A DNA stretch of 32,579 nt from Alteromonadaceae bacterium (GTDB taxonomy: Bacteria > Pseudomonadota > Gammaproteobacteria > Enterobacterales > Alteromonadaceae). Under the pieces are notes generated by a model. That model was not told the DNA's origin and did not search any database. It worked only from the letters and a program-made list of their open reading frames with translations. The translations under genes were made by a program, and so were the position numbers. Of this stretch, positions 4,196-29,363 are shown piece by piece. Position 1 is the stretch's first letter. Every line of letters starts with the position of its first letter. The DNA lies in the NCBI GenBank assembly GCA_015491935.1, contig WGGB01000241.1, positions 1 to 32,579 on the forward strand, written 5' to 3'.

Positions 4196-5968
4196 TTAGC
4201 CATTAGCAAAAAGTGCGATAACCAATGCCAACATTAAAATCCAAAATCCTGATAATAATTGCCAAAAGAGGACTTGTGATTTGTGTTTTTTAACTTTGGG
4301 ATCATCACGTAAATAATTAGGGTTTGGATGTTTTAAGTCGTGCAAAAATTCTTCAATATTATCATAACGCTGCTCTAAATCAAAAGCAACACCACGCTGT
4401 AATGTGCGATCAAACCACATGGGTATTACTGGATTGGCTTCGCTGGCTTTAATATATCGTAAATGATCGTATTCAAAAGCGGTTTGGCATTCTTCTATTT
4501 TTTCACCGTAAGGTAATTTACCGCAAAACAGTTCATAGGTAATGGTGGCAAGGGCATATAAGTCACCTTGTACACCCGTATTTTTACCTAGTAAATACTG
4601 AGGATCAGAATAAGTTGCTGTGCCTAATACGCCTTCATGTTCAAGCGGAATAAAGACTTCGGCAAGACCTGCAACAAAAACAGAACCAAAATCAACAATT
4701 TTTACTTGTATTTCACCACTGTCATTGTTTTCATTTTCACTATCTAATATTAATATGTTGGCAGGTTTTAAATCTTGATGAATAGTTTCCATCTTATGAA
4801 AAGCAGATAAACCATCAGCAATTTGTTCCACAATTTTTATCGCTAATTTAGGTTTGGGAAAATGATGAGCAGCCATCCATTTGTCTAACGATACACCATG
4901 CACATATTCCATTAAATAATATAAACAGGTACGCGGGCGATTTTGGGCGATAATACGTACTACGTGTTCGCTTTGAATACGCTTTCCAATCCATTCTTCT
5001 TGAATAAAGCGGTCAATATAGCCAGTGTCTTCTAAAAAGTTTATCGAGGGGGTTTTCATTACCATGTGCTCACCAGTTTCAGTATCTTCAACTAAATAAA
5101 GTTGACTGCGAGAGCTGGCGAATAATTCTTTTAAGACTTTGTAACCATCTAGTATTACGCCTTCGTCAAGTGGTGGTGGAAAAGGGAGGCGCGTTAGTTT
5201 TGAATTATAATCATTTAAACTTTCATTAGGTAATTGATTTATTTGACAAAGTGAACCACTGATGTTGTCATCACTACCATTGTCAAAAGCAGTTTTAACT
5301 AGTTTTTCAATACGTTCTTGGCAAGAGGTTTGCTCTGCCATAATGTTTTTTATTTGCTCTGCATCAATAAAATCATGAATACCATCAGAGGTAACTAATA
5401 AAATATCATCTTTTTCTAACGTGAATGAGCCATAATCAATTTGAATGGAGTTATCCATGCCCATAGCACGTGCTAAAAAAGTACGCCCAGAGCCAATACT
5501 GGCTACATGATCACGGGTTAGTTGTTTAAACTCACCTTGTCGTAGTAAAAAAGCACGACTATCACCAGCATGAAAAAAATGACAGATTCTTGATTTTAAA
5601 ACAAGTGCAGTAAAAGTAGTTAAATAACCTTTTTCTTCATTGGTAAATTCATGACTACGTTTAAATAATGTTAAGTTGATGCTAGAAAGGATTTTTTGTC
5701 CTGAATGTTTTACTGACCAAGTATCTGGTGTTTGATAATAATCATCAATAAAACGCGTAATAGCCGTATGACTCGCTTCTTTACCGGCTTCTGCGCTACT
5801 AACACCATCAGCAACCGCGAGTACAATACCTTTTGATTCTAATTGGCGATTGTTTTTATCTTTGTCTTCTTGCGGAATAAAAAAACCAACCGCATCTTCA
5901 TTAGCCTCTTTTAAACCTTGTATTGAATGGCTAGCAAGATCTACTTGTAATTGGTTGGTTTCAGTCAT
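4196..5968 (-). CDS. Bifunctional PP2C phosphatase / Ser-Thr protein kinase, membrane-anchored
   Basis: This is a 590-residue fusion. Residues about 10-245 are a PP2C domain with its metal-binding aspartates in place: NED at 23-25, ADG at 53-55, GDSRAF at 135-140, SDG at 194-196 and DDN at 233-235. Residues about 272-545 are a Hanks-type kinase: ion-pair lysine K305 in VMK, HQDLKPAN with catalytic D399 (HQD rather than HRD), and DFG at 426-428. The nucleotide loop (FASSRSQLYL, about 283-292) lacks the usual glycines. A single membrane helix near 566-587 ends the protein, so both enzymatic domains should face the cytoplasm. It follows a nitrate transporter on the same strand. In Pseudomonas a related kinase gene (PA1782) sits between nirB and nasA, so a role in controlling nitrate/nitrite uptake is a reasonable inference. 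Its substrate is unknown. Confidence 0.85.
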   Translation of the reverse strand: MTETNQLQVDLASHSIQGLKEANEDAVGFFIPQEDKDKNNRQLESKGIVLAVADGVSSAEAGKEASHTAITRFIDDYYQTPDTWSVKHSGQKILSSINLTLFKRSHEFTNEEKGYLTTFTALVLKSRICHFFHAGDSRAFLLRQGEFKQLTRDHVASIGSGRTFLARAMGMDNSIQIDYGSFTLEKDDILLVTSDGIHDFIDAEQIKNIMAEQTSCQERIEKLVKTAFDNGSDDNISGSLCQINQLPNESLNDYNSKLTRLPFPPPLDEGVILDGYKVLKELFASSRSQLYLVEDTETGEHMVMKTPSINFLEDTGYIDRFIQEEWIGKRIQSEHVVRIIAQNRPRTCLYYLMEYVHGVSLDKWMAAHHFPKPKLAIKIVEQIADGLSAFHKMETIHQDLKPANILILDSENENNDSGEIQVKIVDFGSVFVAGLAEVFIPLEHEGVLGTATYSDPQYLLGKNTGVQGDLYALATITYELFCGKLPYGEKIEECQTAFEYDHLRYIKASEANPVIPMWFDRTLQRGVAFDLEQRYDNIEEFLHDLKHPNPNYLRDDPKVKKHKSQVLFWQLLSGFWILMLALVIALFANG

Positions 5969-5990
5969 AATTAAATTCTTAATATAAATT

Positions 5991-6066
5991 TTGTAGGTCG
6001 GCGCTTGCTCCGACAGTGTTTTTTATAAAAAATTGTCCTGCTTCGCTACACTCAGGACAACTACAA
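5991..6066. repeat. REP-like pair (BIME-type) with GTAG heads
   Basis: Two hairpins are bracketed by TTGTAG (5991-5996) and its complement CTACAA (6061-6066). The first pairs GTCGG (5997-6001) with CCGAC (6010-6014). The second pairs TTGTCCTG (6033-6040) with CAGGACAA (6053-6060). Read from each outer edge inward, each unit is a GTAG head followed by a hairpin, as in REP sequences mobilised by RAYT transposases. The first hairpin is the same design as the units at 23895-24018, with compensating base changes. No RAYT gene is in this window. Confidence 0.65.
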
Positions 6067-6205
6067 GGTTAAATTAATCCATTATTCTAAATAGTTGGTA
6101 TTACAACAAAGCCGACGAGTTTTTTCTGTCTGAGCTTAGCCTGCCTCTAATTAAATAAAATTGATTATAACTTACTAAAATTATTGGTTGTTTTAGCCTA
6201 AATAA

Positions 6206-6302
6206 TTGCGGCTGTAGTGAAGCTGTCGAGCTGCGAACCACCTGAGCTTAGTTCACTAAGTGATGGTGGTGAGCAGCGATGACAATAAAACTACGGTCGC
6301 AA
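6206..6302. repeat. 97-bp imperfect palindrome downstream of the narK-type gene
   Basis: The element is symmetric around 6253/6254. Nested arms pair as follows: 6206-6218 with 6290-6302 (two G-T pairs), GTC 6225-6227 with GAC 6281-6283, GCTGC 6230-6234 with GCAGC 6273-6277, ACCACC 6237-6242 with GGTGGT 6265-6270, and CTTAG 6247-6251 with CTAAG 6256-6260 around a TTCA loop. It starts 15 bp after the stop codon of the minus-strand transporter. It may be a non-autonomous repeat element, and as RNA it would form a long 3' hairpin. No U tract follows, so it is not a standard terminator. Confidence 0.6.
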
Positions 6303-6317
6303 GAATGACGGCTAAAT

Positions 6318-7793
6318 TTAAGATACGTCGATTAACTCTACCGTACCATCTTCTTTAACCTCAGCCATATGACCTTTAGGTTCAGTTAATAACATAGTGG
6401 CAAAAAATACAATGGCAGCAGAGGCGGCGATAACCATAAAGAAAGTGCTGTAATCAACAAATGACAATACAGTTAAATAAGTTACGGCACCCACATTACC
6501 ATATGCACCAGCCATACCCGCAATTTGTCCTGTCATACGACGTTTTACTAAAGGAACGATTGCAAATACTGCACCTTCACCAGCTTGTACAAAGAAAGAA
6601 CAAGCCATAGTCGCAATAACGGCAAGGGGAATTGCCCAAGTACCATCTACTTGACCTAAAACCATATAACCAACCGCTAAACCGCCCACTAAAATCATTA
6701 GGCTGTTACGACGACCAAACTTGTCACTAAACCAGCCACCAGTAGGGCGAGCTACTAAGTTCATAAAAGCAAAACCTGAAGCCAATAAACCGGCTTTAAC
6801 TGGAGACAAACCTTCAAAAGTATCAAGGAAAAATAATGGTAACATTGAAACTACCGCTAATTCTGAGCCAAAAGTAACAAAGTATGAAAGATCTAATATA
6901 GCAACTTGCTTAAACTCATATTTTTCAATGTCAGCAACACCATGTTTTAAATGTTCAGCATTTACACGCCAAATTGAATGTACTTGTACAACAAACAATA
7001 CAATTAAACCAATCCACATAATTTCCATTACTTGGCTTGAAAATAAATTTACACCAGCGGGTGATAATTTCCATGCGAGTACCGCTAAAGCAGCATACAT
7101 AGGAATATTCATAAATAAGTAAAAGTAAAAGTCTTTCCAGCTAGTAACTTCTAAGCCACCTGATTTTTTTGGTTTAAAATAGGTAGAGCCTTTAGGTGTG
7201 TTACGCGCAGCAATATAAAAGAAAATACCATAAATACCCGCAATAACACCCGTTAAACCAATAGCGTAACGCCAGCCGTCATCACCACCAAAAAATAATG
7301 CGAGTGAAGGTAAAGTCATTGCTGCAGCGGCACTACCAAAGTTACCCCAACCGCCATAAATGCCTTCGGCAATACCGACTTGTTTAGCAGGAAACCATTC
7401 GCCAACTAAACGAATACCAATAACAAAACCAGCGCCGACAAAACCAAGTAAAAATCTAAAAAGTGCTAATTGCTCAAAGCTATCAGCCATGGCAAAACCA
7501 ACACAAATAAAGGAGGAGATAATTAATAAGCCACTGTAAATAACTCGAGGACCAAATTTATCTACCAAAATACCAATAACGATACGTGCGGGGATAGTTA
7601 AAGCAACATTTAAAATCATTAAGGCTTTAACTTGGGCGCTAGATAAATTAAACGCCTCTTTTATAAAAACTAATAAAGGGGCATGGCTAAACCAAACCAC
7701 AAAGGTTAAAAAAAATGCAAACCAAGTAATATGGAGCATTTTTATTTTTGGATCCGCTAGGCTTAGCAGATTCATTTTTCCATCGTATGACAT
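6318..7793 (-). CDS. Nitrate/nitrite transporter, NasA/NarK type (MFS, NNP family)
   Basis: A 491-residue, roughly 12-helix carrier that moves nitrate and/or nitrite across the inner membrane. I use the ATG at 7791-7793 because AGGAG lies 8 nt upstream; an in-frame ATG ten codons earlier (7823) has no such site. Family marks are the substrate arginine in TIPARIVIG (about residue 70), the nitrate signature GGWGNFG (about 147-153), [12 protein letters not shown] in the second half, and a second glycine-rich signature, GAYGNVG, near 430. The sequence resembles the assimilatory NasA group more than the other two carriers here. It is followed on the same strand by the phosphatase-kinase and diverges from another NNP transporter, with an FNR-type site between them. 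No assimilatory nitrate reductase is in view, so whether it serves uptake for respiration or for assimilation is open. Confidence 0.88.
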
Positions 7794-7874
7794 ATCATTA
7801 ACTCCTGCATGTTGCCCATGCAATAATAGTAATTAAAATAAAATGTTAAAGTTTTAAATAAGCTTAAAAAAATA

Positions 7875-7910: not shown

Positions 7911-7924
7911 TTGACACAGGTCAA
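7911..7924. promoter_or_regulatory. FNR/CRP-family dyad between divergent transporters
   Basis: TTGACACAGGTCAA is a perfect TTGAC-N4-GTCAA dyad, one base per half-site away from the FNR consensus TTGAT-N4-ATCAA and close to FixK/NnrR/Dnr-type sites. It can serve both directions. For the plus-strand gene a TATAAT at 7973-7978 would put the site near -67. For the minus-strand gene a weak TATA-like box near 7879-7884 would put it near -42 to -45. The intact symmetry in a 224-bp intergenic region between nitrate transporters makes it credible. Confidence 0.65.
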
Positions 7925-8017: not shown

Positions 8018-9289
8018 ATGGACATACAACAAAAACATTCTTACCGTGCTTTAACTATGGCTACGTTAGCGTTTGCTGCTTGTTTTTCTGTGTGGACACT
8101 TTATTCTATTTTAGGCATTGAATATAAAGAACGCTTTGATTTAAGTGCGACAGAGTTTGGTTTGTTGTTAGCGGCACCTATATTTACGGGAGCTATTTTT
8201 AGAATACCGATTGGTTTTTTAGCTGAAAAAATATCATGTCGCAAATTGTTTTTTTGGCAAATGTTATTAACGGCACCACCACTTTTTTATTTACCTTATG
8301 CTCAAAGCTATAGCTCTTTAATATGGTTAGGATTTGCTTTTGGTATTAGTGGCGTATCTTTTACCATAGGCATTCGTTATGTAACTGATTGGTTTGATAG
8401 TAAAAACCAAGGGTTTGCATTAGGTGTTTTTGGAGCAGGTAATGCTGGTGCTGCAATAACCTTAGTGTTTGTTCCTTTTATTATTAAATATTATGGTTGG
8501 CAAGCCATTGGTCCTATCTATGGCGCTGGAATGATTATTATAGCGATTTTATTTCGCCTTTTTTCTCCTGAAATTAGCCAATTTTATCAAGAAAAGAAAA
8601 AGCGCGATTTTCATTATTATGCTGCTCCATTGAAAGACTTAAAAGTATGGCGTTTTGGTCTTTATTATTATTTTGTTTTTGGTAGTTTTTTAGCGCTTAT
8701 TTTATGGTTGCCACATTATTATGTTGCGGCTTATAAATTGTCATTAACACAAGCCATGGCACTAACGTTATTGTTTGTTGCAAGTTCGAGTATGGTGCGA
8801 GCTGTTGGCGGTTGGTTTGCTGATGCCTATGGTGCTAGAACGGTTAACTGGACTGCTTTTTGGATTTGTATGGTTTGTTTGTTTTTTTTAAGCTATCCAC
8901 CCACAACGATGACTATTCATGGTGTAAATAAAGATGTAAATGTTTTTTTTGAAGTGAATATTTGGTTATTTACCTTGCTTATTTTTATTATTGGTATTGC
9001 GCAAGGTTTTGGGCGCGCAAGTGTGTATAAAACAATTTATGATTATTATCCTAATCATATGGGGAGTGTTGGTGGTTTAGTAGCGGCACTTGGCGCTTTA
9101 GGGGGCTGTACTTTGCCCATTATGTTTGGTGTTGCTGTTGATTTTATTGGCGTTTATAGTGCTTGCTTCATGCTACTTTATGGAGTGTTAGCTACGTGTA
9201 TGGTAGCTATGTATATGGCAGTGAGGGCAGAGCGTTATAAGAAATTATTGAATGACTCTATTGAAAATAATTTTTTAGAGCAAGATTAA
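8018..9289 (+). CDS. NNP-family MFS transporter (NarK-like), second carrier
   Basis: A 423-residue, roughly 12-helix carrier. The reading frame stays open to 7886, but the extra 44 residues would cover the promoter/FNR region and look unlike a carrier N-terminus. I therefore start at the ATG 8018-8020, with a weak TTAGG Shine-Dalgarno just upstream. The protein then begins MDIQQKHSYR, immediately before helix 1. Signatures are FRIPIGFL with arginine R62, GAGNAGA (about 139-145), and IAQGFGRASVYKTI plus a glycine-rich helix in the second half. These place it in the nitrate/nitrite porter family, but it is shorter and more divergent than the other two carriers, so substrate direction (nitrate import or nitrite export) cannot be assigned. 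The PqqD-like gene follows after a 45-bp gap and is probably cotranscribed. Confidence 0.82.
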   Translation: MDIQQKHSYRALTMATLAFAACFSVWTLYSILGIEYKERFDLSATEFGLLLAAPIFTGAIFRIPIGFLAEKISCRKLFFWQMLLTAPPLFYLPYAQSYSSLIWLGFAFGISGVSFTIGIRYVTDWFDSKNQGFALGVFGAGNAGAAITLVFVPFIIKYYGWQAIGPIYGAGMIIIAILFRLFSPEISQFYQEKKKRDFHYYAAPLKDLKVWRFGLYYYFVFGSFLALILWLPHYYVAAYKLSLTQAMALTLLFVASSSMVRAVGGWFADAYGARTVNWTAFWICMVCLFFLSYPPTTMTIHGVNKDVNVFFEVNIWLFTLLIFIIGIAQGFGRASVYKTIYDYYPNHMGSVGGLVAALGALGGCTLPIMFGVAVDFIGVYSACFMLLYGVLATCMVAMYMAVRAERYKKLLNDSIENNFLEQD

Positions 9290-9334
9290 GTGTGCATTAC
9301 ATTTGTTAGATACAATTAACTTTAGGAAAAACTT

Positions 9335-9730
9335 TTGGAAAATACAAAAAAAACCTTATTAAATATTAATCATTATTTTTATCGTACTGTTGTTTTTACT
9401 CGAGCGGGAAATAAGGTCGCTTTGGCTGATATTGAGCACCCACAACAAACGACTGAATTAGAAGACTGGATGGGCATTGTGATCTCTTTGGCTGATGGTG
9501 AACATACATTAGTAGAGTTAGTTAATTATATGGCAAGCCAGTATCAACAAGTACCTGAAAAATTAGAAGAAACGTTAGAATCTGTAGTAGAGCGTTTAGT
9601 TGAAAGCAAATTATTAAGATTAAGTGAAAATAAAGTGCAGCTACCTTATTATTTAGCCGCACCGATTGAACAACTAGACCTTGAAAAAGCCAAAAAAATG
9701 ATCAAAGAAGATGGCTATACTGTGCATTAA
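9335..9730 (+). CDS. Small PqqD/RRE-like winged-helix protein
   Basis: A 131-residue soluble protein starting at TTG (9335-9337), with AGGA (9324-9327) at good spacing; no ATG is available in frame near the start. The core has the PqqD pattern: a short beta region (about 10-40), an acidic stretch, then ISLADGEHTLVELVNYM (about 50-66) followed by a helix and a terminal LVESKLLRL (about 88-96). This matches the general shape 'aDG..tv.el...l......v.......l...gll'. PqqD-like domains (RiPP recognition elements) bind precursor peptides for radical-SAM or other maturases. None of those, and no obvious precursor, is beside it. It is 45 bp downstream of the NNP transporter, so a role in nitrate transport or sensing is possible but is pure inference. 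The assignment rests on pattern recognition only. Confidence 0.55.
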   Translation: MENTKKTLLNINHYFYRTVVFTRAGNKVALADIEHPQQTTELEDWMGIVISLADGEHTLVELVNYMASQYQQVPEKLEETLESVVERLVESKLLRLSENKVQLPYYLAAPIEQLDLEKAKKMIKEDGYTVH

Positions 9731-12325: not shown

Positions 12326-12964
12326 TCAATGAGATATTTTATTCTCTATTGCCCATAATGCTGCTTCAACTCGTGATTTTAGGCCTAATTTTTTTAATAG
12401 GTTTTTTACGTGTACTTTTACGGTTGCTTCGGTAATGCCGAGTTTATTGGCGATATCTTTATTGCTTTTGCCGTTAGCAATAAGTTTTAAGTTTTCTAAT
12501 TCACGTTGCGTTAAACTCTCTAATAATGAATTTTTTTGTGGATTAGAACGCAAAGAGCGCACTAATATTTGTGTTAAAGGTTCACTTATTACAAATTCTC
12601 CTTTAAGGGCAATATTAATTTTTGTAATTAATTCTTCTGGTTCGCTGTCTTTGAGTAAATAGCCATCAGCATTAAATTTAAGTGCTTGTAGTACATCAGC
12701 TTCGTTATCTGAAACACTAAAAATAACAATTTTGCTTTTTACCTCTGCCCGTTTAAGTGCGCTTAGGGTGTCTATACCACTTAATCCTTTCATGTTCAAA
12801 TCAAGTAAAATTAAATCAACTGGATTTTTTATTGCCAATGCAATTGCTTCTTCACCAGAGCTTGCTTCTGCACTCACCTCTAAATTATCTTCAAGTGAAA
12901 TTAATTGAGCAACACCTTTACGTAACATGGGATGATCGTCAACGAGTAATATTTTAGCAGTCAT
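12326..12964 (-). CDS. narL: Nitrate/nitrite response regulator NarL
   Basis: A 212-residue NarL/FixJ-type regulator. The receiver domain (about 1-120) has the acidic pocket D9-D10, phospho-acceptor D55 in LILLDLNMKG, and the conserved lysine in DGYLLKDSEP (near 106). The LuxR-type helix-turn-helix (about 146-205) reads LTQRELENLKLIANGKSNKDIANKLG, then the recognition helix TEATVKVHVKNLLKKL. It is 56 bp downstream of narX on the same strand, a typical narXL operon. The presumed targets are the TACYYMT-like heptamers in the adjacent narX-narK intergenic region. NarP is a close relative; the linkage to narX, narK and narG favours the NarL name. Confidence 0.9.
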   Translation of the reverse strand: MTAKILLVDDHPMLRKGVAQLISLEDNLEVSAEASSGEEAIALAIKNPVDLILLDLNMKGLSGIDTLSALKRAEVKSKIVIFSVSDNEADVLQALKFNADGYLLKDSEPEELITKINIALKGEFVISEPLTQILVRSLRSNPQKNSLLESLTQRELENLKLIANGKSNKDIANKLGITEATVKVHVKNLLKKLGLKSRVEAALWAIENKISH

Positions 12965-13020
12965 TTTATTCTCTTTTTATTCTGTTTTTATTATTGTTTT
13001 AATCGCTATATTAATGGCTT

Positions 13021-14787
13021 TTATCTGTTAAAGCTTAAGCTGATTATTGTGCCATGAGGAGCTAAATTACTAATATTAATTAAGGTATTTAATGATTTTG
13101 CTCGTTCTTCCATGATCCCTAAACCAAAATGACCTGGTTGTGAAAATTCTTTTGGCAATCCGATGCCGTTATCGCTAATGCTTATTTTTACTTTATCACC
13201 ATCTTGATTTATTTCAATATTGGCTAATGTTGCCTTAGCGTGTCTGTGGATATTAGATAAGGCTTCTCTTACTATCTGCAATATATGTATTTCTTGATTG
13301 GCATTTAGATAGTTATCAGGCAATTGGTAACTTAATTTGATAGGATGTTGGCATTTTTCTTTAAATTCAGCAATAGTGCCTTGTAATGCACTTTCTAAGG
13401 AAGGATCGTCTAATTTTAATCTAAAGGTTGTGAGTAATTCTCTTAGTTGTAAGTAAGCATTATTTAAGCCTTGTTTTATGTCTTCAATGGTTTCATCAAT
13501 TTGTTCGGCAGCTACTTTTTTGTGCATTTTTCGGGTGAGTAAACTCATTTGAACTTTTAGGTATGAAAGTGATTGTGCCAATGAATCGTGTAACTCTCGT
13601 GCGATAACGGCACGTTCTTCTACAATTAATAATCGGTTTTCACTGTTTCGTTTTTGATCTAATTCAATTGCTGTCGCAATAATATCGGCTATGGCTTGTA
13701 GTATTTGTTGTTGCCACGGGGCTACTTTTTCATTTTTAGGGAATTGCCAAATTAAATAACCAAAAAGTAAGGTCTGTTTTTCTAAAGGAAATTTTAGATG
13801 GTTAAAACAAATATGATCTATGGTGTCAAAAGGGCTAACAATGTCAATAACTAAGTGATTATGCTGATGTTTATTTAGTTTTATACTGACACGACCAAAA
13901 CCTAAAACTTGTTCTAATTCTTTAATTATTTTCGGGTCAATTTGTTGGTTTTCTTTAGCTGATATATGGTGTGAATCATAACTGGTTAGCTGTTTTGCTG
14001 CATGATAAAGCATTTCTAACGATTGATTTGACTGGGTTAGTTGCTGAGTTTTTTGTGCTACTCGTTGTTCAAAATCTTGGTAGGTGCTTTTTAGTTCACT
14101 CGCCATTTGATTAATGGCACGTGATAATACGCCTAATTCGTCATCTCCTTGATATTGAGCTTTAAGCTCAAAGTTTCCTTTTCCCGTTTCATTCGCTACC
14201 TTAACTAGTTGTTTTAACGGTATTATAACTGATTTATTTAATTTTATTAATACGATAGTTGATATGATCAAGACTAAGAGTAAGCTTATACCTTGAATTA
14301 ATCTTAATATGCTGAGTTTTTTTTCTGACTCAATTTGTAGTAGTGTAACTAACTTATCAATTACATCGACAAAACGATCAAATTTAGCAAAAATTTGTTT
14401 GTTTTTTTGTGGCGAATAAGGAATATCTTTTTGTTGCTTTATTTTTTTCCAAGCATTGATTAAATCTTGATATTGTTGTGCTATTTCTTCATTACTGCCT
14501 GAGCTTAATAACCCACCAGCCAATAAGTTTTTTAAATGCTGATCAAAATTTTTAATTTCTTTGTCAAGTAACTGCTTATCAGTATTTTGAATCATATAAG
14601 CTCTAGATATACGTATAGCTTGCATTCTTAATGCACCCGCACTATTAATTTTAGCGGCATCACCACTAAGACTTTCAGTGACTAGCATAGAAGAAATCAT
14701 GCTGATAATACCCAACGTGATTATAAGCGTAATAATTTGCCCAACACGGGCAACTAAAGAGGTACTTGACGAGGTTTCGTTAAACAA
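13021..14787 (-). CDS. narX: Nitrate/nitrite sensor histidine kinase NarX
   Basis: 588 residues. The only upstream start consistent with a full first membrane helix is TTG at 14785-14787; a stop lies seven codons further up, and the first ATG would cut helix 1. No clear Shine-Dalgarno is seen, so the start is uncertain. Layout: helix 1 (about 15-35); a periplasmic helical domain with a P-box-like INSAGALRMQAIRISRAYM (about 42-60), the ligand-binding motif of NarX/NarQ; helix 2 (about 165-185); HAMP (about 186-238); coiled coil; a GAF-like linker (about 265-385); the HisKA_3 box RELHDSLAQ with H400; and an HATPase domain with REALSNIHRHA and DNGIGL. The Cys cluster of E. coli NarX is not evident, so NarQ-like naming is possible. 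Upstream of narL in one operon. Confidence 0.88.
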   Translation of the reverse strand: MFNETSSSTSLVARVGQIITLIITLGIISMISSMLVTESLSGDAAKINSAGALRMQAIRISRAYMIQNTDKQLLDKEIKNFDQHLKNLLAGGLLSSGSNEEIAQQYQDLINAWKKIKQQKDIPYSPQKNKQIFAKFDRFVDVIDKLVTLLQIESEKKLSILRLIQGISLLLVLIISTIVLIKLNKSVIIPLKQLVKVANETGKGNFELKAQYQGDDELGVLSRAINQMASELKSTYQDFEQRVAQKTQQLTQSNQSLEMLYHAAKQLTSYDSHHISAKENQQIDPKIIKELEQVLGFGRVSIKLNKHQHNHLVIDIVSPFDTIDHICFNHLKFPLEKQTLLFGYLIWQFPKNEKVAPWQQQILQAIADIIATAIELDQKRNSENRLLIVEERAVIARELHDSLAQSLSYLKVQMSLLTRKMHKKVAAEQIDETIEDIKQGLNNAYLQLRELLTTFRLKLDDPSLESALQGTIAEFKEKCQHPIKLSYQLPDNYLNANQEIHILQIVREALSNIHRHAKATLANIEINQDGDKVKISISDNGIGLPKEFSQPGHFGLGIMEERAKSLNTLINISNLAPHGTIISLSFNR

Positions 14788-15013: not shown

Positions 15014-15027
15014 TTGATCTGTATCAA
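15014..15027 (+). promoter_or_regulatory. Consensus FNR site of the narK promoter
   Basis: TTGATCTGTATCAA is an exact match to TTGAT-N4-ATCAA. Its centre (15020.5) falls at -41.5 from a start near 15062 that is predicted by the extended -10 element at 15046-15054. That is the class II FNR activation geometry. Confidence 0.85.
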
Positions 15028-15054: not shown

Positions 15055-15143
15055 AGCCTCAGTTAGAAATAAATCTTTGTGAAATAAACGGTTCTTTTAT
15101 GCTAGGAACTAAATTAAAAAATACTGATAAGTTGGAGAAAACA

Positions 15144-16748
15144 ATGTCAGATATCGAAAAATGGGACGTAGAAGATCCCAAGTTTTGGGAAAGTGAAGGT
15201 AAAAAGGTTGCTAATCGCAACCTTTGGATCTCTATTCCAAGCTTACTCTGTGGTTTTGCAGTATGGTTATATTGGGGGATCATTACGGTTCAAATGTTAA
15301 ACTTAGGTTTTCCATTTGAAAAATCAGAATTATTTACGCTAATGGCTATTGCGGGCTTAACAGGTGCAACATTACGTATTCCCAGCAGCTTTTTTATTCG
15401 TTTATGTGGTGGTCGTAATACGATTGTATTTACTACCGCGTTACTTATATTGCCAGCTGTTGGTGCAGGTATCGCCTTACAAGACATAAATACGCCATTA
15501 TGGGTTTTTCAAGGTCTTGCTTTGTTGTCTGGTTTTGGTGGTGGTAACTTTGCCTCTTCAATGTCTAACATCAGTTTTTTCTTCCCTAAAAAACAACAAG
15601 GTTTAGCATTAGGCTTAAATGCTGGTTTAGGTAACTTTGGTGTTACTACAATGCAAATTTTAGTGCCTTTAGTGATGACTTTTGGTTTGTTTGGTGGAGA
15701 CCCAATGACCTTAGTGAATACTTCGGGTACATTAATTGGCAAAATTCCCGCAGGTAGTGATGCGTGGATTTTTAATGCTGGTTATGTATGGCTTTTATTC
15801 TTAGTACCACTCGTTATTGTTGGTTGGTTTGGTATGAATAATATTAAAGCGCCTCATGTAACGCCTGATTTACCAAACCCTATTATTTCTTTTGGTATGA
15901 TTTCAATTATGTTATTAATTGGTTTTGCCACTGCAATTGCTGGTTTGTGGTTATTGTTGCCCGCTTCTGTTAACGGTTCTGGTTTTGGTGTTCCTAAAGA
16001 AATGGTATTAATTGGTGTTGTTGGTGCAACGGTAATGCTATTAAAATTTTTACCCGGTAAAATCAAAGAAAATTTAGATCGTCAATATAAAATATTTAAT
16101 AATCCTCACACTTGGGTAATGAGTGTTATTTACACGATGACTTTTGGTTCTTTTATTGGTTTTGCGGCGGCTTTTCCTCTTTCTATAAAAGTTATTTTTG
16201 GTTATCAACATATTATGGTTGATGGTGTAATGACACATAATACGATTAATGCTAATGGTCCTAGTGCGTTAATGTATGCTTGGATGGGTGCCTTTATTGG
16301 TGCGTTAATTCGTCCTATCGGTGGTTGGATGGCTGATAAAATGGGTGGCGCTAAAGTAACACAATATTGTTCAGTGGTTATGGTTGCTAGTGCATTAGGT
16401 GTGGCTTACTATATGAAACAAGCTTATGCGAGTGCAACACCAGAAGAATATTTTGTGCCGTTTTTTGTGTTGTTTTTATTCTTATTTGCGGCAACAGGTA
16501 TTGGCAATGGTTCTACCTTCCGTACTATTTCAATGGTATTTAATAAAGAACAAGCTGGTCCTGTATTAGGTTGGACTTCTGCTATCGCAGCTTACGGTGC
16601 ATTTTATATTCCTAAAGTGTTAGGTGAGCAAATTAAATTAACGACACCAGAAAATGCCTTAATTGGTTTCGCAATATTCTATGCCGTGTGTATCGGTATT
16701 AACTGGTGGTTTTATTTACGTAAAGGTGCTGAGCATCATAATCCTTAA
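15144..16748 (+). CDS. narK: Nitrate/nitrite transporter NarK
   Basis: A 534-residue NNP-family carrier. I start at ATG 15144-15146, which has GGAG (15134-15137) at good spacing; the upstream ATG at 15099 would add 15 residues without a ribosome site. After a charged 27-residue N-terminus come about 12 helices. Marks are ATLRIPSSFF with a substrate-binding arginine, the first nitrate signature AGLGNFG (about 160-166), ALIRPIGGWMADKMGG, and the second signature TGIGNGSTFR (about 451-460). This is the respiratory NarK type, expected to exchange nitrate for nitrite or import nitrate with protons. The FNR and NarL sites upstream and narGHJI downstream (185-bp gap with a terminator-like hairpin) show it serves nitrate respiration. 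Confidence 0.92.
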   Translation: MSDIEKWDVEDPKFWESEGKKVANRNLWISIPSLLCGFAVWLYWGIITVQMLNLGFPFEKSELFTLMAIAGLTGATLRIPSSFFIRLCGGRNTIVFTTALLILPAVGAGIALQDINTPLWVFQGLALLSGFGGGNFASSMSNISFFFPKKQQGLALGLNAGLGNFGVTTMQILVPLVMTFGLFGGDPMTLVNTSGTLIGKIPAGSDAWIFNAGYVWLLFLVPLVIVGWFGMNNIKAPHVTPDLPNPIISFGMISIMLLIGFATAIAGLWLLLPASVNGSGFGVPKEMVLIGVVGATVMLLKFLPGKIKENLDRQYKIFNNPHTWVMSVIYTMTFGSFIGFAAAFPLSIKVIFGYQHIMVDGVMTHNTINANGPSALMYAWMGAFIGALIRPIGGWMADKMGGAKVTQYCSVVMVASALGVAYYMKQAYASATPEEYFVPFFVLFLFLFAATGIGNGSTFRTISMVFNKEQAGPVLGWTSAIAAYGAFYIPKVLGEQIKLTTPENALIGFAIFYAVCIGINWWFYLRKGAEHHNP

Positions 16749-16933: not shown

Positions 16934-19900
16934 ATGAGTCATTTTCTTGATCGCTTACAGTTTTTTAAAAAGAAAACTGGCGAATTTAGCGACGGTCATG
17001 GTGATACTACCAATGAAGGTCGTGAGTGGGAAGACAGCTATCGCCAACGCTGGCAACATGACAAAATAGTACGTTCAACCCATGGGGTAAACTGTACGGG
17101 GTCTTGTTCATGGAAAGTTTATGTTAAAAATGGTTTGGTTACTTGGGAAACCCAACAAACTGATTACCCGCGTACTCGCCCTGATTTACCAAATCATGAA
17201 CCACGTGGTTGTCCTCGTGGAGCAAGTTACTCTTGGTATTTATACAGCGCTAACCGTCTAAAATATCCCAAAGTGCGCAAACCATTATTAAAATTATGGC
17301 GCGCTGCGCGTGCAACGATGGATCCTGTTAAAGCTTGGGGGAGTATTGTTGAAGATAAAACTAAGTGCGATGCTTATAAATCAAAACGTGGTTTAGGAGG
17401 CTTTGTTCGCTCTAGTTGGGATGAAGTGAATGAAATAATTGGTGCAGCTAACGTTTATACTACAAAAACATATGGACCCGATCGGGTTGTAGGTTTTTCA
17501 CCTATTCCAGCGATGTCTATGGTTTCTTATGCTGCTGGTTCTCGTTATTTATCTTTAATTGGTGGTGTTTGTTTAAGCTTTTATGATTGGTATTGTGATT
17601 TACCTCCTGCTTCTCCACAAGTATGGGGTGAACAGACAGATGTACCTGAATCAGCAGACTGGTATAATTCAAACTATATCATTGCTTGGGGTTCTAATGT
17701 TCCACAAACTCGTACCCCTGATGCGCATTTCTTTACAGAAGTTCGTTATAAAGGTGCCAAAACGGTTTCAATTACGCCTGATTATGCTGAAGTTTCAAAA
17801 CTTACTGATGAATGGTTAAACCCTAAACAGGGTACTGATGCTGCCTTGGGTATGGCTTTTGGTCATGTTATTTTAAAAGAATATCACTTAGAAAAACCAA
17901 GTGAATATTTTACTAATTATGTTCGTCAATATACTGATTTTCCAATGTTGGTATTGCTTGAAAAACTTGATGGTCCTGCAGTTGACGGCACTTCATTTAA
18001 ATCAACACGCTTTTTACGCGCTTCAGATTTAGCGGATAATTTAGGCCAAGAGAATAATCCAGAATGGAAAACTATTGCTTTAGATGAAAATACTAATGAA
18101 CTTGTTTCGCCTACTGGCTCTGTTGGTTACCGTTGGGGAGAAAAAGGTAAGTGGAATATTCAAGAGCGTGAAGGTAAAACAGGTAGCGAGACCAAATTAC
18201 AATTAACTTTGCTTGGTGATAACGCTAACGTAACCCCTGTAGCATTTCCTAACTTTGCTGCGGATGCTACCAATACGGCGTGGACAGCTGATGGACAAGA
18301 AGCTATTCAAGTACGTAATGTGCCAAGTAAAACCATTATGAGTGCTGACGGAAAGGAATACTTAGTCGCTACGGTTTATGATTTAATGATGGCTAACTAT
18401 GGTATTGATCGTGGTTTAGGTGGTGAAAATGTCGCCTCTAGTTACGATGATGCTAGCGTTCCTGGCACTCCGGCTTGGCAAGAAAAAATTACGGGCTTAG
18501 ATCGCTCAAAAGTGATTAAAATTGCGCGTGAATTTGCCGATACTGCGGATAAAACCAAAGGTAAGTCAATGATCATTGTTGGTGCTGGTATGAATCACTG
18601 GTATCACTTAGATATGAATTATCGTGGTCTAATGAATATGGTAATGATGTGTGGTTGTGTTGGTCAATCTGGCGGTGGTTGGGCGCATTATGTGGGTCAA
18701 GAAAAACTACGTCCACAAACTGGTTGGTTGCCCCTTGCCTTCGGTTTAGATTGGTCTCGTCCACCGCGTCAAATGAATGGTACTTCATTCTTTTACAATC
18801 ATTCGTCACAATGGCGCCATGAAAAATTAAGTGTTCATGAAACCTTGTCACCTTTGGCGAATAAAGAAGAATTTCCTGAACATACGCTTGACTATAATAT
18901 TAAAGCAGAACGTATGGGCTGGTTGCCGTCTGCACCACAGTTAAATCGTAATCCTTTACAATTAGTTAAAGATGCTGAAGCGGCGGGTATGTCGGCAAAA
19001 GATTTTGCGGTACAAGAGCTTAAAAACGGCAACTTAAAATTTGCTGCTGAAGCGCCAGATGCACCAGAAAACTTCCCGCGTAATATGTTTATTTGGCGTT
19101 CAAACTTACTGGGTTCATCAGGTAAAGGCCATGAATATATGCTTAAATATTTATTGGGCGCTAAAAATGGCGTTATGAATGAAGATTTAGGTAAAACTGA
19201 AGGCTTTAAGCCAGAAGAAGCAGAATGGGTAGAAGAAGGGGCAACAGGTAAATTAGATCTTGTAACCACATTAGATTTTAGAATGTCATCAACCTGTATG
19301 TATTCAGATATCATTTTACCTACAGCAACATGGTACGAAAAAGATGATTTAAATACTTCTGATATGCATCCATTTATTCATCCATTATCAACTGCCGTTG
19401 ATCCTGCATGGGAAGCAAAATCTGATTTTGAAATATTTAAAGGTATCGCGAAAGCATTTTCTGAAGTTGCAGTAGGCACACTAGGTGTAGAGCAAGATTT
19501 TGTTACGGTGCCAATGTTACATGATACTGTTGGCGAATTAGCACAACCGTTTGATGTAAAAGATTGGAAAAAAGGTGAGTGTGATTTAATTCCAGGAATT
19601 ACGGCGCCTAATATGGTAACGGTAGAGCGTGACTATCCTAATATTTACAAGCAGTTTACCTCTGTGGGTCCATTATTAGAAAAATTAGGCAATGGCGGTA
19701 AAGGTATTGGTTGGAATACAGAAGAAGAAGTGAAACTGTTAGGTGATTTAAATCATCGTGTTACTGACGAAGGTATTAGTGAGGGTCGTCCTCAGCTTAA
19801 TTCTGCTATTGATGCTGCTGAAATGGTATTAACCTTAGCACCAGAAACCAATGGTAATGTTGCGGTTAAAGCATGGGAAGCGATAGGTGAGTTTACAGGA

Positions 19901-20737
19901 CTTGATCATACGCATTTGGCTAAACCTAAGCATGATGAAAAAATTCGTTTTCGTGATATTCAAGCACAACCACGTAAAATTATTTCTTCACCCACATGGT
20001 CTGGCTTAGAAGATGAACACGTGAGTTATACCGCTGGTTATACCAACGTACATGAGTATATCCCGTGGAGAACAATCACAGGGCGTCAACAGTTCTATCA
20101 AGATCATAAATGGATGCAAGCATTTGGTTCGCAAATGATGTCTTATCATCCACCGATAGACACTAAAACGACAAAAATGATTAAAAACAGTAAACCTAAT
20201 GGTAACAAAGAAATTGTACTTAACTGGATCACCCCACATCAAAAATGGGGTATTCACAGTACTTATTCTGATAACTTGTTAATGTTGACATTATCTCGCG
20301 GTGGTCCAATTATTTGGATGAGTGAGGTTGATGCAAAAGAAGCGGATATTGAAGATAACGATTGGGTTGAGGTGTTTAACGAGAATGGAGCTATTGCTTG
20401 TCGCGTGGTTGTTTCGCAACGAGTTAATCAAGGTATGACCATGATGTACCATGCTCAAGAACGTATTATGAATATACCTGGTAGCGAAATGACAGGTACG
20501 CGTGGTGGCCATCATAACTCAGTAACTCGCGTAGTGATGAATCCAACACATATGATTGGTGGTTATGCACAACAAGCTTATGGCTTTAACTACTACGGTA
20601 CGGTTGGCTCTAATCGTGATGAAATGGTAGTTATACGTAAAATGGATAAGGTGGACTGGTTAGATGATGATTGCTTTGACGCTAGCAACACTGATAAATT
20701 ACCACGTGCTCTTCCAACTAACCCAGATAAAGCTTAA
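16934..20737 (+). CDS. narG: Respiratory nitrate reductase alpha subunit NarG
   Basis: 1267 residues, against 1247 in E. coli. It is the molybdenum bis-MGD catalytic subunit that reduces nitrate to nitrite on the cytoplasmic side using quinol electrons passed through NarI and NarH. Ligands of the FS0 [4Fe-4S] cluster are present in the characteristic His/Cys form: H50, C54, C58 and C93. The region YDWYCDLPPASPQVWGEQTD (about 216-235) contains the aspartate that coordinates Mo in E. coli (D222). The N-terminus (SHFLDRLQFF) has no cleavable signal, as in other cytoplasm-facing NarG. GGAG precedes the ATG. narH starts 11 bp after its stop, with tight operon spacing. Mo-cofactor synthesis genes are not in the window. 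Confidence 0.98.
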   Translation: MSHFLDRLQFFKKKTGEFSDGHGDTTNEGREWEDSYRQRWQHDKIVRSTHGVNCTGSCSWKVYVKNGLVTWETQQTDYPRTRPDLPNHEPRGCPRGASYSWYLYSANRLKYPKVRKPLLKLWRAARATMDPVKAWGSIVEDKTKCDAYKSKRGLGGFVRSSWDEVNEIIGAANVYTTKTYGPDRVVGFSPIPAMSMVSYAAGSRYLSLIGGVCLSFYDWYCDLPPASPQVWGEQTDVPESADWYNSNYIIAWGSNVPQTRTPDAHFFTEVRYKGAKTVSITPDYAEVSKLTDEWLNPKQGTDAALGMAFGHVILKEYHLEKPSEYFTNYVRQYTDFPMLVLLEKLDGPAVDGTSFKSTRFLRASDLADNLGQENNPEWKTIALDENTNELVSPTGSVGYRWGEKGKWNIQEREGKTGSETKLQLTLLGDNANVTPVAFPNFAADATNTAWTADGQEAIQVRNVPSKTIMSADGKEYLVATVYDLMMANYGIDRGLGGENVASSYDDASVPGTPAWQEKITGLDRSKVIKIAREFADTADKTKGKSMIIVGAGMNHWYHLDMNYRGLMNMVMMCGCVGQSGGGWAHYVGQEKLRPQTGWLPLAFGLDWSRPPRQMNGTSFFYNHSSQWRHEKLSVHETLSPLANKEEFPEHTLDYNIKAERMGWLPSAPQLNRNPLQLVKDAEAAGMSAKDFAVQELKNGNLKFAAEAPDAPENFPRNMFIWRSNLLGSSGKGHEYMLKYLLGAKNGVMNEDLGKTEGFKPEEAEWVEEGATGKLDLVTTLDFRMSSTCMYSDIILPTATWYEKDDLNTSDMHPFIHPLSTAVDPAWEAKSDFEIFKGIAKAFSEVAVGTLGVEQDFVTVPMLHDTVGELAQPFDVKDWKKGECDLIPGITAPNMVTVERDYPNIYKQFTSVGPLLEKLGNGGKGIGWNTEEEVKLLGDLNHRVTDEGISEGRPQLNSAIDAAEMVLTLAPETNGNVAVKAWEAIGEFTGLDHTHLAKPKHDEKIRFRDIQAQPRKIISSPTWSGLEDEHVSYTAGYTNVHEYIPWRTITGRQQFYQDHKWMQAFGSQMMSYHPPIDTKTTKMIKNSKPNGNKEIVLNWITPHQKWGIHSTYSDNLLMLTLSRGGPIIWMSEVDAKEADIEDNDWVEVFNENGAIACRVVVSQRVNQGMTMMYHAQERIMNIPGSEMTGTRGGHHNSVTRVVMNPTHMIGGYAQQAYGFNYYGTVGSNRDEMVVIRKMDKVDWLDDDCFDASNTDKLPRALPTNPDKA

Positions 20738-20748
20738 GGAGTAGAATT

Positions 20749-22293
20749 GTGAAAATTCGTTCTCAAATAGGTATGGTATTAAACCTTGATAAGTGTATCG
20801 GGTGTCATACATGTTCAATTACTTGTAAAAATGTTTGGACCTCGCGTGAAGGTGTTGAATACGCGTGGTTTAACAATGTCGAAACAAAACCTGGTATTGG
20901 TTACCCTAAAGAATGGGAAAATCAAGACAAGTGGAAAGGTGGTTGGATACGTAAATCTGACGGTAACATCGAACCTAAAATTGGTGGTAAATACCGTGTG
21001 TTAGCCAATATTTTTGCTAACCCGAATTTACCTGAAATTGATGATTACTATGAACCATTTGATTTTGATTATCAGCATTTGCATACTTCACCAGAAGTAA
21101 AACATCAGCCAACAGCTCGTCCTCGCTCTGTTATTACCGGCAAGCGTATGGAAAAAATTGAGTGGGGTCCAAACTGGGAAGAAATTTTAGGTACAGAGTT
21201 TGAAAAACGCTCTAAAGACAAAAATTTCGATAATATGCAAAAACAAATGTACGGTGAATTTGAAAACACATTCATGATGTATTTACCGCGTTTGTGTGAG
21301 CATTGTTTAAATCCAGCGTGTGTGGCTTCTTGTCCATCAGGCGCAATATACAAACGTGAAGAAGACGGTATTGTCTTGATTGACCAAGAAAAATGTCGTG
21401 GCTGGCGTATGTGTATTTCGGGTTGTCCGTATAAAAAGATTTACTTCAACTGGAAATCAGGAAAATCAGAAAAATGTATTTTCTGTTATCCTCGTATTGA
21501 AGCAGGTCAACCAACAGTTTGTAGTGAAACGTGTGTAGGTCGTATTCGTTATTTAGGGGTCATTTTATATGATGCCGATAGAATTAAAGAAGTGGCATCT
21601 ACACCATCTGAAACTGATTTATACGAGAAACAATTAGAAGTTTTCTTAGATCCAAATGATCCCGCTATTATTGCGCAAGCACGTAAAGATGGTATTGCTG
21701 ATTCAATCATTGAGGCAGCACAAAAATCTCCTGTATATAAAATGGCGATTGATTGGAAACTAGCATTACCATTGCACCCTGAATATCGTACTTTACCTAT
21801 GGTTTGGTACGTACCGGCATTGAGCCCAATTCAAAGTGCAGTTGACTCAGGTACTTTGGCTACTATTGGTAAAGCTGGTGTTATTCCTGATATTCGCGCT
21901 TTGCGTATTCCGCTTAAATATTTGGCGAATTTGCTAACGGCTGGTGATGAAGAGCCTGTTGCTCGTGCATTAGAGCGTTTGCTTGCTATGCGTGCTTATA
22001 AACGTGCTGAAAATGTTGAAGGTGTTGAAGATTTACAAGTATTGGAAGATGCGGGTTTATCTAAAAAACAAGCCGATGAAATGTATCGTTATTTAGCCAT
22101 TGCTAATTATGAAGATCGTTTCGTTATTCCAACAGGCCATCGTGAAATGAATGTTCCTGAAGCTTACGGTGAAAAATCAGGCTGTGGTTTTACCTTTGGT
22201 AATGGCTGTAGTGATGGTGGAAATGACGTTAATATGTTCGGTGGTAAAAAAATCACCAAACGTGACATCATTAAAACTGTGAATGTTGGTTAG
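20749..22293 (+). CDS. narH: Respiratory nitrate reductase beta subunit NarH
   Basis: 514 residues from a GTG start (20749-20751) with AGGAG upstream. It is the iron-sulfur electron-wire subunit between NarI hemes and NarG. Four cysteine groups are visible: C16/C19/C22/C26 at the N-terminus; CEHCLNPACVASCP (about 183-196); CRGWRMCISGCP (about 217-228), in which tryptophan replaces one cysteine as expected for the [3Fe-4S] cluster; and CIFC with the later CSETC (about 243-264). All ligands expected for three [4Fe-4S] and one [3Fe-4S] cluster appear intact. narJ follows 9 bp after the stop. Confidence 0.98.
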   Translation: MKIRSQIGMVLNLDKCIGCHTCSITCKNVWTSREGVEYAWFNNVETKPGIGYPKEWENQDKWKGGWIRKSDGNIEPKIGGKYRVLANIFANPNLPEIDDYYEPFDFDYQHLHTSPEVKHQPTARPRSVITGKRMEKIEWGPNWEEILGTEFEKRSKDKNFDNMQKQMYGEFENTFMMYLPRLCEHCLNPACVASCPSGAIYKREEDGIVLIDQEKCRGWRMCISGCPYKKIYFNWKSGKSEKCIFCYPRIEAGQPTVCSETCVGRIRYLGVILYDADRIKEVASTPSETDLYEKQLEVFLDPNDPAIIAQARKDGIADSIIEAAQKSPVYKMAIDWKLALPLHPEYRTLPMVWYVPALSPIQSAVDSGTLATIGKAGVIPDIRALRIPLKYLANLLTAGDEEPVARALERLLAMRAYKRAENVEGVEDLQVLEDAGLSKKQADEMYRYLAIANYEDRFVIPTGHREMNVPEAYGEKSGCGFTFGNGCSDGGNDVNMFGGKKITKRDIIKTVNVG

Positions 22294-22302
22294 GAGAGCG
22301 TT

Positions 22303-23040
22303 ATGTTAATTCTTAAAGTAATTTCACGTTTGCTCGATTATCCTAGCGCAGAAATGTTTGCGGCAAAGGATGAGCTTATTGCAATCGTTGAAAAAACGAC
22401 TGAATTGACTGAACAAAACCGCACTCAATTGGTTGATTTTATCAACCAATTGACGGCTAGAGACATTTTTGATGCACAAGAAAGCTACGATTTGTTATTT
22501 GATCGTGGCCGAGCATTATCACTATTGTTATTTGAACACGTTCATGGCGAATCGCGTGATCGTGGTCAAGCAATGGTTGACTTAATGAATGTTTACAAGT
22601 CGAATGGTTTTGAAGTTGATTCGTCACAATTGCCTGATTATATTCCGCTTTATCTGGAGTTTTTAAGTGAGCAGCCAATCGAGTTTGTTGAAGAATGGCT
22701 TGGTGATGTTGTGCATCTATTAACGATGTTATCAGAGCGCTTAATTGATAGAGACTGTTATTATTCGATTCTTTTTGATGCTTTAATTGATATTTCAGGT
22801 CAACAAGTTGACCGTCAAGAAATTAAAGAATCAGTAAAAAAAGAAGAACGTGATGACACTCTCGAGGTGATCGATAAAGAGTGGGAAGATAAAGAAATTC
22901 GTTTTGATGATCCTATGGTGGACAGTTGTCCTTCTTCAAATGGGTTACAAAACTCACAACATTCATTAGATCCAAATACTGTACATCAAGTGCCAATTAA
23001 GTGGCATGATGCAGACGCGGCTGAAGTTGCGGGATTATAA
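22303..23040 (+). CDS. narJ: NarJ, nitrate reductase assembly chaperone
   Basis: 245 residues (E. coli 236). NarJ is a cytoplasmic TorD/DmsD-type helical chaperone that binds NarG for Mo-cofactor insertion and is absent from the final enzyme. The start MLILKVISRLLDYPS and the family hallmark LLFEHVHGESRDRGQAMVDL (about 75-95), with PDYIPLYLEFL (about 107-117), are clear. The C-terminal third is acidic and low in recognisable structure, as in other NarJ. GGAG precedes the ATG and narI starts 10 bp after the stop, so it is expressed within the operon. Confidence 0.97.
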   Translation: MLILKVISRLLDYPSAEMFAAKDELIAIVEKTTELTEQNRTQLVDFINQLTARDIFDAQESYDLLFDRGRALSLLLFEHVHGESRDRGQAMVDLMNVYKSNGFEVDSSQLPDYIPLYLEFLSEQPIEFVEEWLGDVVHLLTMLSERLIDRDCYYSILFDALIDISGQQVDRQEIKESVKKEERDDTLEVIDKEWEDKEIRFDDPMVDSCPSSNGLQNSQHSLDPNTVHQVPIKWHDADAAEVAGL

Positions 23041-23050
23041 GGAGAAACTT

Positions 23051-23728
23051 ATGTCAAATTTAAATTTTTTATTATTTGGGATTTATCCCTATATTGCTTT
23101 AGCGGTGTTCGTCGTTGGTTGTTGGATCCGTTATGATCGCGAACCTTATACTTGGAAAGCCGACTCTAGTCAGCTTTTAGATCAAAAAGGTTTTAGACTA
23201 TCAAGTAACTTGTTTCACATTGGTATTATTTTTGTCTTGTGTGGCCATTTTGTTGGTTTATTAACGCCAGCCTCAATATATCATCATGTGATCACCAGTC
23301 CACAAAAACAATTGTTGGCGATGATCAGTGGTGGTAGCTTTGGTTTGTTATGCTTAGTTGGTTTAGTGATGTTATTAAAACGTCGCTTAATGAATCCAAG
23401 AGTGCGTGCGACATCAAAAACATCAGACATTGTTATTTTAGTGATGTTATTGATCCAATTATTGCTTGGTTTATCAACCATTTTTGCTTCCGCACAACAT
23501 TTAGATGGTGTAGAAATGGAACATTTAGCAGAATGGGCTCAAGGTATAGTGACTTTGAGAGGTGTAACTGCGTCAGAAGCAATAGCTCATGTTGATTTGA
23601 TTTTTAAACTACACATATTTTTTGGTTTAACCTTACTTGTGGTTTTCCCATTTACACGTTTAGTTCACATGATCAGCGTGCCTGTAAAATATTTTGCACG
23701 TAACTATCAACTCGTTAGAGAAAGATAA
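23051..23728 (+). CDS. narI: Respiratory nitrate reductase gamma subunit NarI (cytochrome b)
   Basis: 225 residues, the same length as E. coli NarI. I use the ATG 23051-23053 with AAGGAG (23039-23044) overlapping the narJ stop; an upstream ATG at 23006 lies inside narJ. Five membrane helices carry two b-type hemes and the quinol site. The four axial histidines are recognisable: H56 and H66 (FHIG...CGHF), and H188 and H206 (KLHIF, RLVHM). It anchors NarGH to the membrane and passes electrons from quinol to NarH. It is the last gene of narGHJI; a strong hairpin follows. Confidence 0.98.
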   Translation: MSNLNFLLFGIYPYIALAVFVVGCWIRYDREPYTWKADSSQLLDQKGFRLSSNLFHIGIIFVLCGHFVGLLTPASIYHHVITSPQKQLLAMISGGSFGLLCLVGLVMLLKRRLMNPRVRATSKTSDIVILVMLLIQLLLGLSTIFASAQHLDGVEMEHLAEWAQGIVTLRGVTASEAIAHVDLIFKLHIFFGLTLLVVFPFTRLVHMISVPVKYFARNYQLVRER

Positions 23729-29287: not shown

Positions 29288-29363
29288 TCGTAACGAATAT
29301 ATATAGTTTTGTTTAAAACAAAACTGGTAGGTTTAATTATAAAAATGAATGAGGCTAAGTAAC

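Follow-up and report, generated by a model that had tools for sequence, protein, structure and literature searches.

A PqqD-like gene behind a nitrate transporter

The window analyzed here is a 32,579-nucleotide stretch of contig WGGB01000241.1 from an Alteromonadaceae bacterium (assembly GCA_015491935.1). Within it, an open reading frame on the forward strand runs from a TTG start at 9335 to the last base of its stop codon at 9730, and encodes a PqqD/RRE-like accessory protein of 131 residues, with a core at residues ~14-98 and a family-specific C-terminal tail at ~99-131. Reading of the sequence places AGGA, a probable Shine-Dalgarno element (9324-9327, forward strand), 7 nt ahead of the TTG, and the gene follows a gene of the NNP/NarK transporter family by 45 bp. 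The reading frame, its start and the gap lie where the first-pass annotation had placed them. The gene also starts with TTG in three congeners, and its dN/dS is 0.07-0.18 in all six pairwise comparisons among the four congeneric genomes. The PqqD-like gene is therefore real, constrained and under purifying selection.

The gene in front, here called NNP2 (8018-9289, forward strand; best start the ATG at 8018), is the probable first gene of a two-gene unit and encodes an MFS transporter with matches to Pfam MFS_1 (E 1.4e-40) and to the NCBIfam NarK model TIGR00886 (E 6e-53, 180 bits against a curated cut-off of 312). The pair is kept in 4/4 congeners, with intergenic gaps of 9 to 179 bp in the other three. 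Upstream of NNP2 lies the palindrome TTGACacagGTCAA (7911-7924), which we take, from its likeness to the consensus, to be an FNR/NNR-type site; it is kept in 4/4 congeners as TTGAC-N4-GTCAA, 88-107 bp ahead of the transporter start. A palindrome upstream of the narK-narGHJI unit, TTGATctgtATCAA (TTGAT-N4-ATCAA; 15014-15027), is likewise of FNR type. The FNR-type pattern occurs three times in the window against 0.19 expected, and the third occurrence (29755-29768), within an open reading frame at 29349-30860, probably arose by chance. Among nine loci from outside the genus, the 350 bp upstream contain such a site in genome G506 alone, where it may serve the divergent gene instead.

A divergent gene for a NarK nitrate/nitrite transporter (6318-7823, reverse strand) reaches 316.9 bits with TIGR00886, above the NarK cut-off, and in 4/4 congeners it is adjoined by a gene for a PP2C phosphatase-protein kinase fusion (4196-5968, reverse strand). 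This fusion gene stands behind the divergent NarK gene in the window (4196-7823) and in loci L009, L010 and L011, and a homologue lies beside an NNP transporter in genome G071 (L035); the fusion may control nitrate uptake via phosphorylation. Beyond the PqqD-like gene come a NarX/NarL-like two-component pair, so named from its position (12326-14787, reverse strand; HisKA_3, PilJ-type sensor and Response_reg/GerE domains), a NarK-type MFS transporter of the nar operon, matched by Pfam MFS_1 only and named from its context (15099-16748, forward strand), narG, which encodes the alpha subunit of respiratory nitrate reductase (16934-20737, forward strand; TIGR01580, 2337.7 bits), and narH, narJ and narI (20749-23728, forward strand; PF14711, PF02613 and PF02665). 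A gene for a PPIC-type prolyl isomerase follows narI (24052-24879) and is kept in G395 (L101) and G243 (L044).

Domain assignment and distribution of the family

The PqqD/RRE domain had been called from residue patterns, and profile searches support the call with a strength that depends on the level at which it is made. Taken singly, the window protein scores 19.2 bits (E 1.6e-3) against PF05402 PqqD, below the Pfam cut-off of 23.4 bits and about the same as against DUF5789 (19.3 bits). The NCBIfam models of PqqD type match it at E 7.9e-5 (TIGR04248) and E 1.9e-4 (TIGR03859, PqqD proper; 21.3 bits, under the equivalog cut-off of 46 bits). Across the family, the PF05402 model picks up 11 of the 12 aligned sequences at E<=0.1, the best at 2.6e-5. 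When ten homologues were scanned singly with this model, one (L002) gave 24.9 bits, a second (L050) equalled the 23.4-bit cut-off and eight were below it or unmatched, with L053 the sole homologue to show no PqqD match at E<=0.05. The family profile retrieves a PqqD structure, PDB 5sxy, as its first match (E 2.4e-3), and hhalign of the family against five PqqD-type proteins, taken from loci that the family's own profile had retrieved, returns a probability of 97.1% and an E value of 6.2e-11 over 80 columns. Four proteins from these comparator loci pass PF05402 independently at 45-66 bits, the one from G622 being a neighbouring PqqD copy rather than the copy that the profile matched. An earlier profile (A2) also retrieves, with weak scores, ordinary PqqD proteins from other genomes. 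The resemblance to PqqD/RRE domains, weak for the single sequence, is firm at the family level.

The family differs from PqqD in a conserved C-terminal tail after residue ~98, in which 9 of 11 members carry an LxxP element on reading of the alignment. AlphaFold prediction from four rows gives the order strand-strand-helix-helix-helix(-helix), with a pLDDT of only 43; the order is compatible with a PqqD/RRE fold, but a model this poor is no evidence by itself. The PqqD-like proteins are a separate family built on a PqqD/RRE core plus a conserved C-terminal tail. The family is acidic, with a pI of 4.3-5.4 in 12/12 alignment rows.

The gene is present in all four genomes of its own genus. A draw of 394 genomes from the order gave two matches, the genome of the window and one distant relative (L004). 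A class draw of 369 gave 11 at E<=1e-3: eight strong matches (E<=1.6e-28), among which the own genome is counted, and three weak ones that are ordinary PqqD; a phylum draw of 249 gave the own genome only. Beyond the taxonomic family of the window, six further families of the class have homologues at 37-50% identity, and the seven carrier lineages are the families f1, f61, f70, f129, f137, f146 and f152. Three orders that hold carriers have the gene in 1/4, 1/53 and 4/6 of their genomes, and phage, plasmid and viral collections yielded zero relatives of the protein. Within the genomes drawn, the family looks confined to parts of its class. The distant relative L004 shows 28% identity, lacks most of the C-terminal tail, has a YCII neighbour and comes from a genome (G367) without narG; it was retained as a row in alignments A1-A3 and left out of the carrier counts.

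Association with respiratory nitrate reductase

The association that extends across the lineages is with narG. This gene is present in 63 of the 369 class-draw genomes and in 8/8 strong carriers among them, and in 0/3 genomes whose only matches are ordinary PqqD. Five further carriers from outside the class draw (G394, G395, G396, G1024 and G1026) all have it, so that presence of the PqqD-like gene implies narG in 13/13 carriers overall. By genome, the hypergeometric probability of the association in the class draw is 4.9e-7, and by genus, with 7/7 against 51/272, it is 5.7e-6; genomes are not independent, and the seven lineages are therefore the fair unit. In the genus of G614, narG is present in the four carriers and absent from the two non-carriers, G498 and G1025 (an 88% complete genome). 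The PqqD-like gene is itself optional among narG genomes, since 55 of the 63 in the class draw are without it.

The two genes are often, and by no means always, close together. They are separated by 7 kb in the window and in G396, by 6.7 kb in G685, G614 and G713, by 6.8 kb in G1024 and by 3 kb in G506, so that 7/13 carriers and 4/7 lineages have them within 8 kb (rough chance estimate 1e-6). The distance is 125 kb in G726 and 253 kb in G430, and the genes are on separate contigs in G394, G395, G730 and G1026; in three of the seven lineages (G726, G430 and G730) the PqqD-like gene is thus away from narG. Co-evolution of NarG with the PqqD-like protein is not claimed: their trees share one clade (G726, G685 and G506), and the overall Spearman coefficient of 0.23 hardly changes, to 0.20, with the other NarG copy of G506.

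The pairing with an NNP transporter, which the first-pass annotation had emphasized, holds throughout the genus and fails outside it. Orthologues of NNP2 occur in 22/394 order-draw genomes (23 matches), and the 21 genomes other than that of the window all lack the PqqD-like gene; 12 of the 23 transporter loci were annotated, with the gene in none. The slot behind the transporter holds NnrS in L028, a DGC-domain protein in L035 and NnrS-like genes, as judged by eye, in L033, L036 and L039. Different genes can thus occupy this position, several with links to nitrogen oxides, one of the alternatives being the PqqD-like gene. The respiratory nitrate reductase locus is the broader and stronger association, and the original view has accordingly been widened: within the searched genomes the family occurs only with narG and is not transporter-specific. 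That annotation had also raised the binding of a protein tail. For the C-terminal tail of NNP2 this candidate was rejected as unsupported, because the tails are alike in orthologues with and without the PqqD-like gene.

The immediate neighbours vary among lineages, with no constant or outstanding partner gene. Four genomes (G614, G713, G1024 and G1026) have a gene for a 103-117-residue membrane-like protein in front and one for an HPP-type protein behind, the latter called by Pfam in L050 only and by likeness in the remaining loci. In G685 and G506, the PqqD-like gene is overlapped at its 3' end by a gene for a 116-126-residue protein that matches no Pfam or NCBIfam model (L048 7677-8027; L049 9112-9492). 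The product of this overlapping gene is possibly a dedicated partner in these two lineages. The gene 6 bp ahead in G430 encodes a protein that matches cytochrome c', UbiT (NF047962, 129.8 bits) is encoded 30 bp ahead in G730, and a weakly SseB-like protein (E 0.027, under the cut-off) in front in G726. HPP proteins have a role in nitrite transport, and UbiT has one in anaerobic respiration.

Several other genes recur in these regions. In G430 and G1026 a DsrC/TusE-family protein is encoded directly after narI, and in G506 one is encoded close to the PqqD-like gene (L049 8545-8886; L098 15842-16210; L100 4338-4727). A gene that looks FKBP/SlyD-like by eye is near the PqqD-like gene in L050, L051, L052, L073 and L074. 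In G506, UbiT and an apparent U32-peptidase (UbiU/V-like) follow a second narGHJI operon (L102 14925-18409).

A maturase of the kind that RRE domains usually serve is missing from the vicinity, as had been proposed: no RiPP maturase was found among the 14 window proteins scanned with Pfam or, by eye, among the rest of the ~20 plausible genes, and the 14 scanned proteins include neither PqqA nor PqqE. Inspection of the carrier loci by eye likewise revealed no radical-SAM, YcaO or precursor gene directly beside the PqqD-like gene. The upstream neighbour in L048 (5680-7020, opposite strand) has the look of a MiaB-type methylthiotransferase, which we take to be a housekeeping radical-SAM enzyme and not a peptide maturase. 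Elsewhere in the genomes, a SPASM radical-SAM match is present in 9/13 carriers and absent from 4/13. In the three congeners G394, G395 and G396 this match is NirJ, which scores near the threshold of the SPASM model; the one match in the genome of the window is a radical-SAM gene beside a glycosyltransferase-like open reading frame and is not NirJ-like by eye.

A protein binder of nitrate respiration?

What, then, might this protein do? Its probable role is that of a helper of nitrate respiration that has so far gone unrecognised, rather than a part in a peptide-modifying pathway. Considering that its presence is bound to narG and that it has no constant gene partner, a nitrate-respiration protein binder is the simplest reading; the lack of a constant partner is what one would expect if the protein were an adaptor for the product of a more distant gene, for instance one of the nar products. 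The acidic pI favours protein binding over DNA binding. We would give about an even chance to a more specific proposal, namely a soluble, acidic accessory protein of respiratory nitrate reduction, ~130 residues long, that combines the PqqD/RRE core with its own tail and acts as an FNR-controlled peptide-binding adaptor. In its own genus, the protein would be made together with the NNP transporter from an FNR-type promoter upon a switch to nitrate. A groove flanked by the beta-sheet and helix 3, predicted from homology only, would then bind a short stretch of a second protein, much as the peptide sits between strand and helix 3 in the groove of PqqD-type domains (PMC12710340 and PMC7470986). 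The bound segment would belong to a component of nitrate uptake, of nitrate reductase assembly or of nitrite/NO handling, rather than to a RiPP precursor. Co-transcription, peptide binding and a nitrate-linked partner are all steps that we infer.

Perhaps the protein is instead a true RRE whose trans-acting partner is a maturase, of the radical-SAM or another kind, possibly NirJ, a relative of PqqE, with the carriers being denitrifiers. The PqqD-type domain seen by hhalign would fit, as would the finding that NirJ is the only SPASM match in the three congeners; narG and the heme d1 genes are often found together in denitrifiers. NirJ, however, is the radical-SAM enzyme of heme d1 synthesis, and its substrate is a tetrapyrrole and not a peptide. 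The SPASM match of the window's genome does not resemble it, and no precursor or maturase adjoins the gene in the carrier loci that were read; the four carriers with no SPASM match also count against this alternative, although not decisively, with NirJ so near the model threshold. Together these points make a trans-acting maturase unlikely. A small winged-helix regulator of nitrate/nitrite transport or of the NO stress response is improbable to a similar degree. The winged-helix fold of RREs is common to DNA-binding domains (PMC7470986), and the variable neighbours have mostly anaerobic nitrogen or respiratory functions, but the family is acidic in every row, the Pfam HTH models are weak (HTH_47 gives the window protein 14.5 bits against a cut-off of 27.1) and PqqD models are the best across the family.

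The pair kept in all four congeners would fit a subunit dedicated, in this genus, to regulating or assembling the preceding NNP transporter. Considering that all 21 other transporter genomes of the order draw do without the PqqD-like gene, that homologues elsewhere adjoin other genes and that the transporter tail is the same in carriers and non-carriers, we find such a subunit quite unlikely. The LxxP element suggests a different refinement, in which an RRE domain recruited by anaerobic nitrate respiration brings its ligand along: the groove would be filled by the tail until a Nar, NarK or nitrite-handling protein took its place, and the PqqD-like protein would thereby be a switchable adaptor. 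This idea stems from the resemblance of LxxP to W/Y/LxxP/L/I, the recognition sequences of PqqD-type RREs (PMC12710340), and we hold it distinctly doubtful. Finally, a hitchhiking gene that has no role in nitrate metabolism and moved along with nar islands could account for the patchy spread (1/53 and 4/6 genomes in two orders), but it is difficult to reconcile with the presence of narG even 125-253 kb away or on another contig, and with the purifying selection on the gene; it is very unlikely.

RRE domains are taken as signs of RiPP pathways in genome mining. If the protein-binder reading is true, a narG-tracking PqqD-like family with no adjacent maturase would mean that the fold has been recruited for work beyond RiPPs, and that nitrate respiration, among the most thoroughly studied of anaerobic respirations, has an accessory factor that had escaped notice. 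A literature search of titles and abstract beginnings, mostly outside the subscription journals, did not find a PqqD-like protein of nitrate respiration.

Among known systems, NarJ and NapD, the peptide-binding assembly chaperones of nitrate reductases, offer a possible functional analogy as small cytosolic binders; they belong to an unrelated family, and no such model appears in the Pfam or NCBIfam scans of the window protein. NnrS and the DGC-domain proteins share only the slot behind orthologous NNP transporters in other genomes of the order, and are unrelated to the PqqD-like protein. The stand-alone RREs of lasso peptide (B1) and sactipeptide pathways are closer. No maturase, protease or precursor lies beside the PqqD-like gene in the carrier loci read, in contrast to such RREs, and yet the family resembles them at the level of an RRE-Finder-type criterion, a profile match of at least 90% to PqqD-type proteins across 50 or more residues (PMC7470986). 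Closest of all is PqqD itself (PF05402/TIGR03859), the peptide chaperone of PQQ synthesis and likewise a small stand-alone protein. The PqqD-like family has no PqqA or PqqE neighbour that was seen; it shares with PqqD a homologous core of ~80 columns, to which it adds a further conserved tail of ~33 residues and a link to narG.
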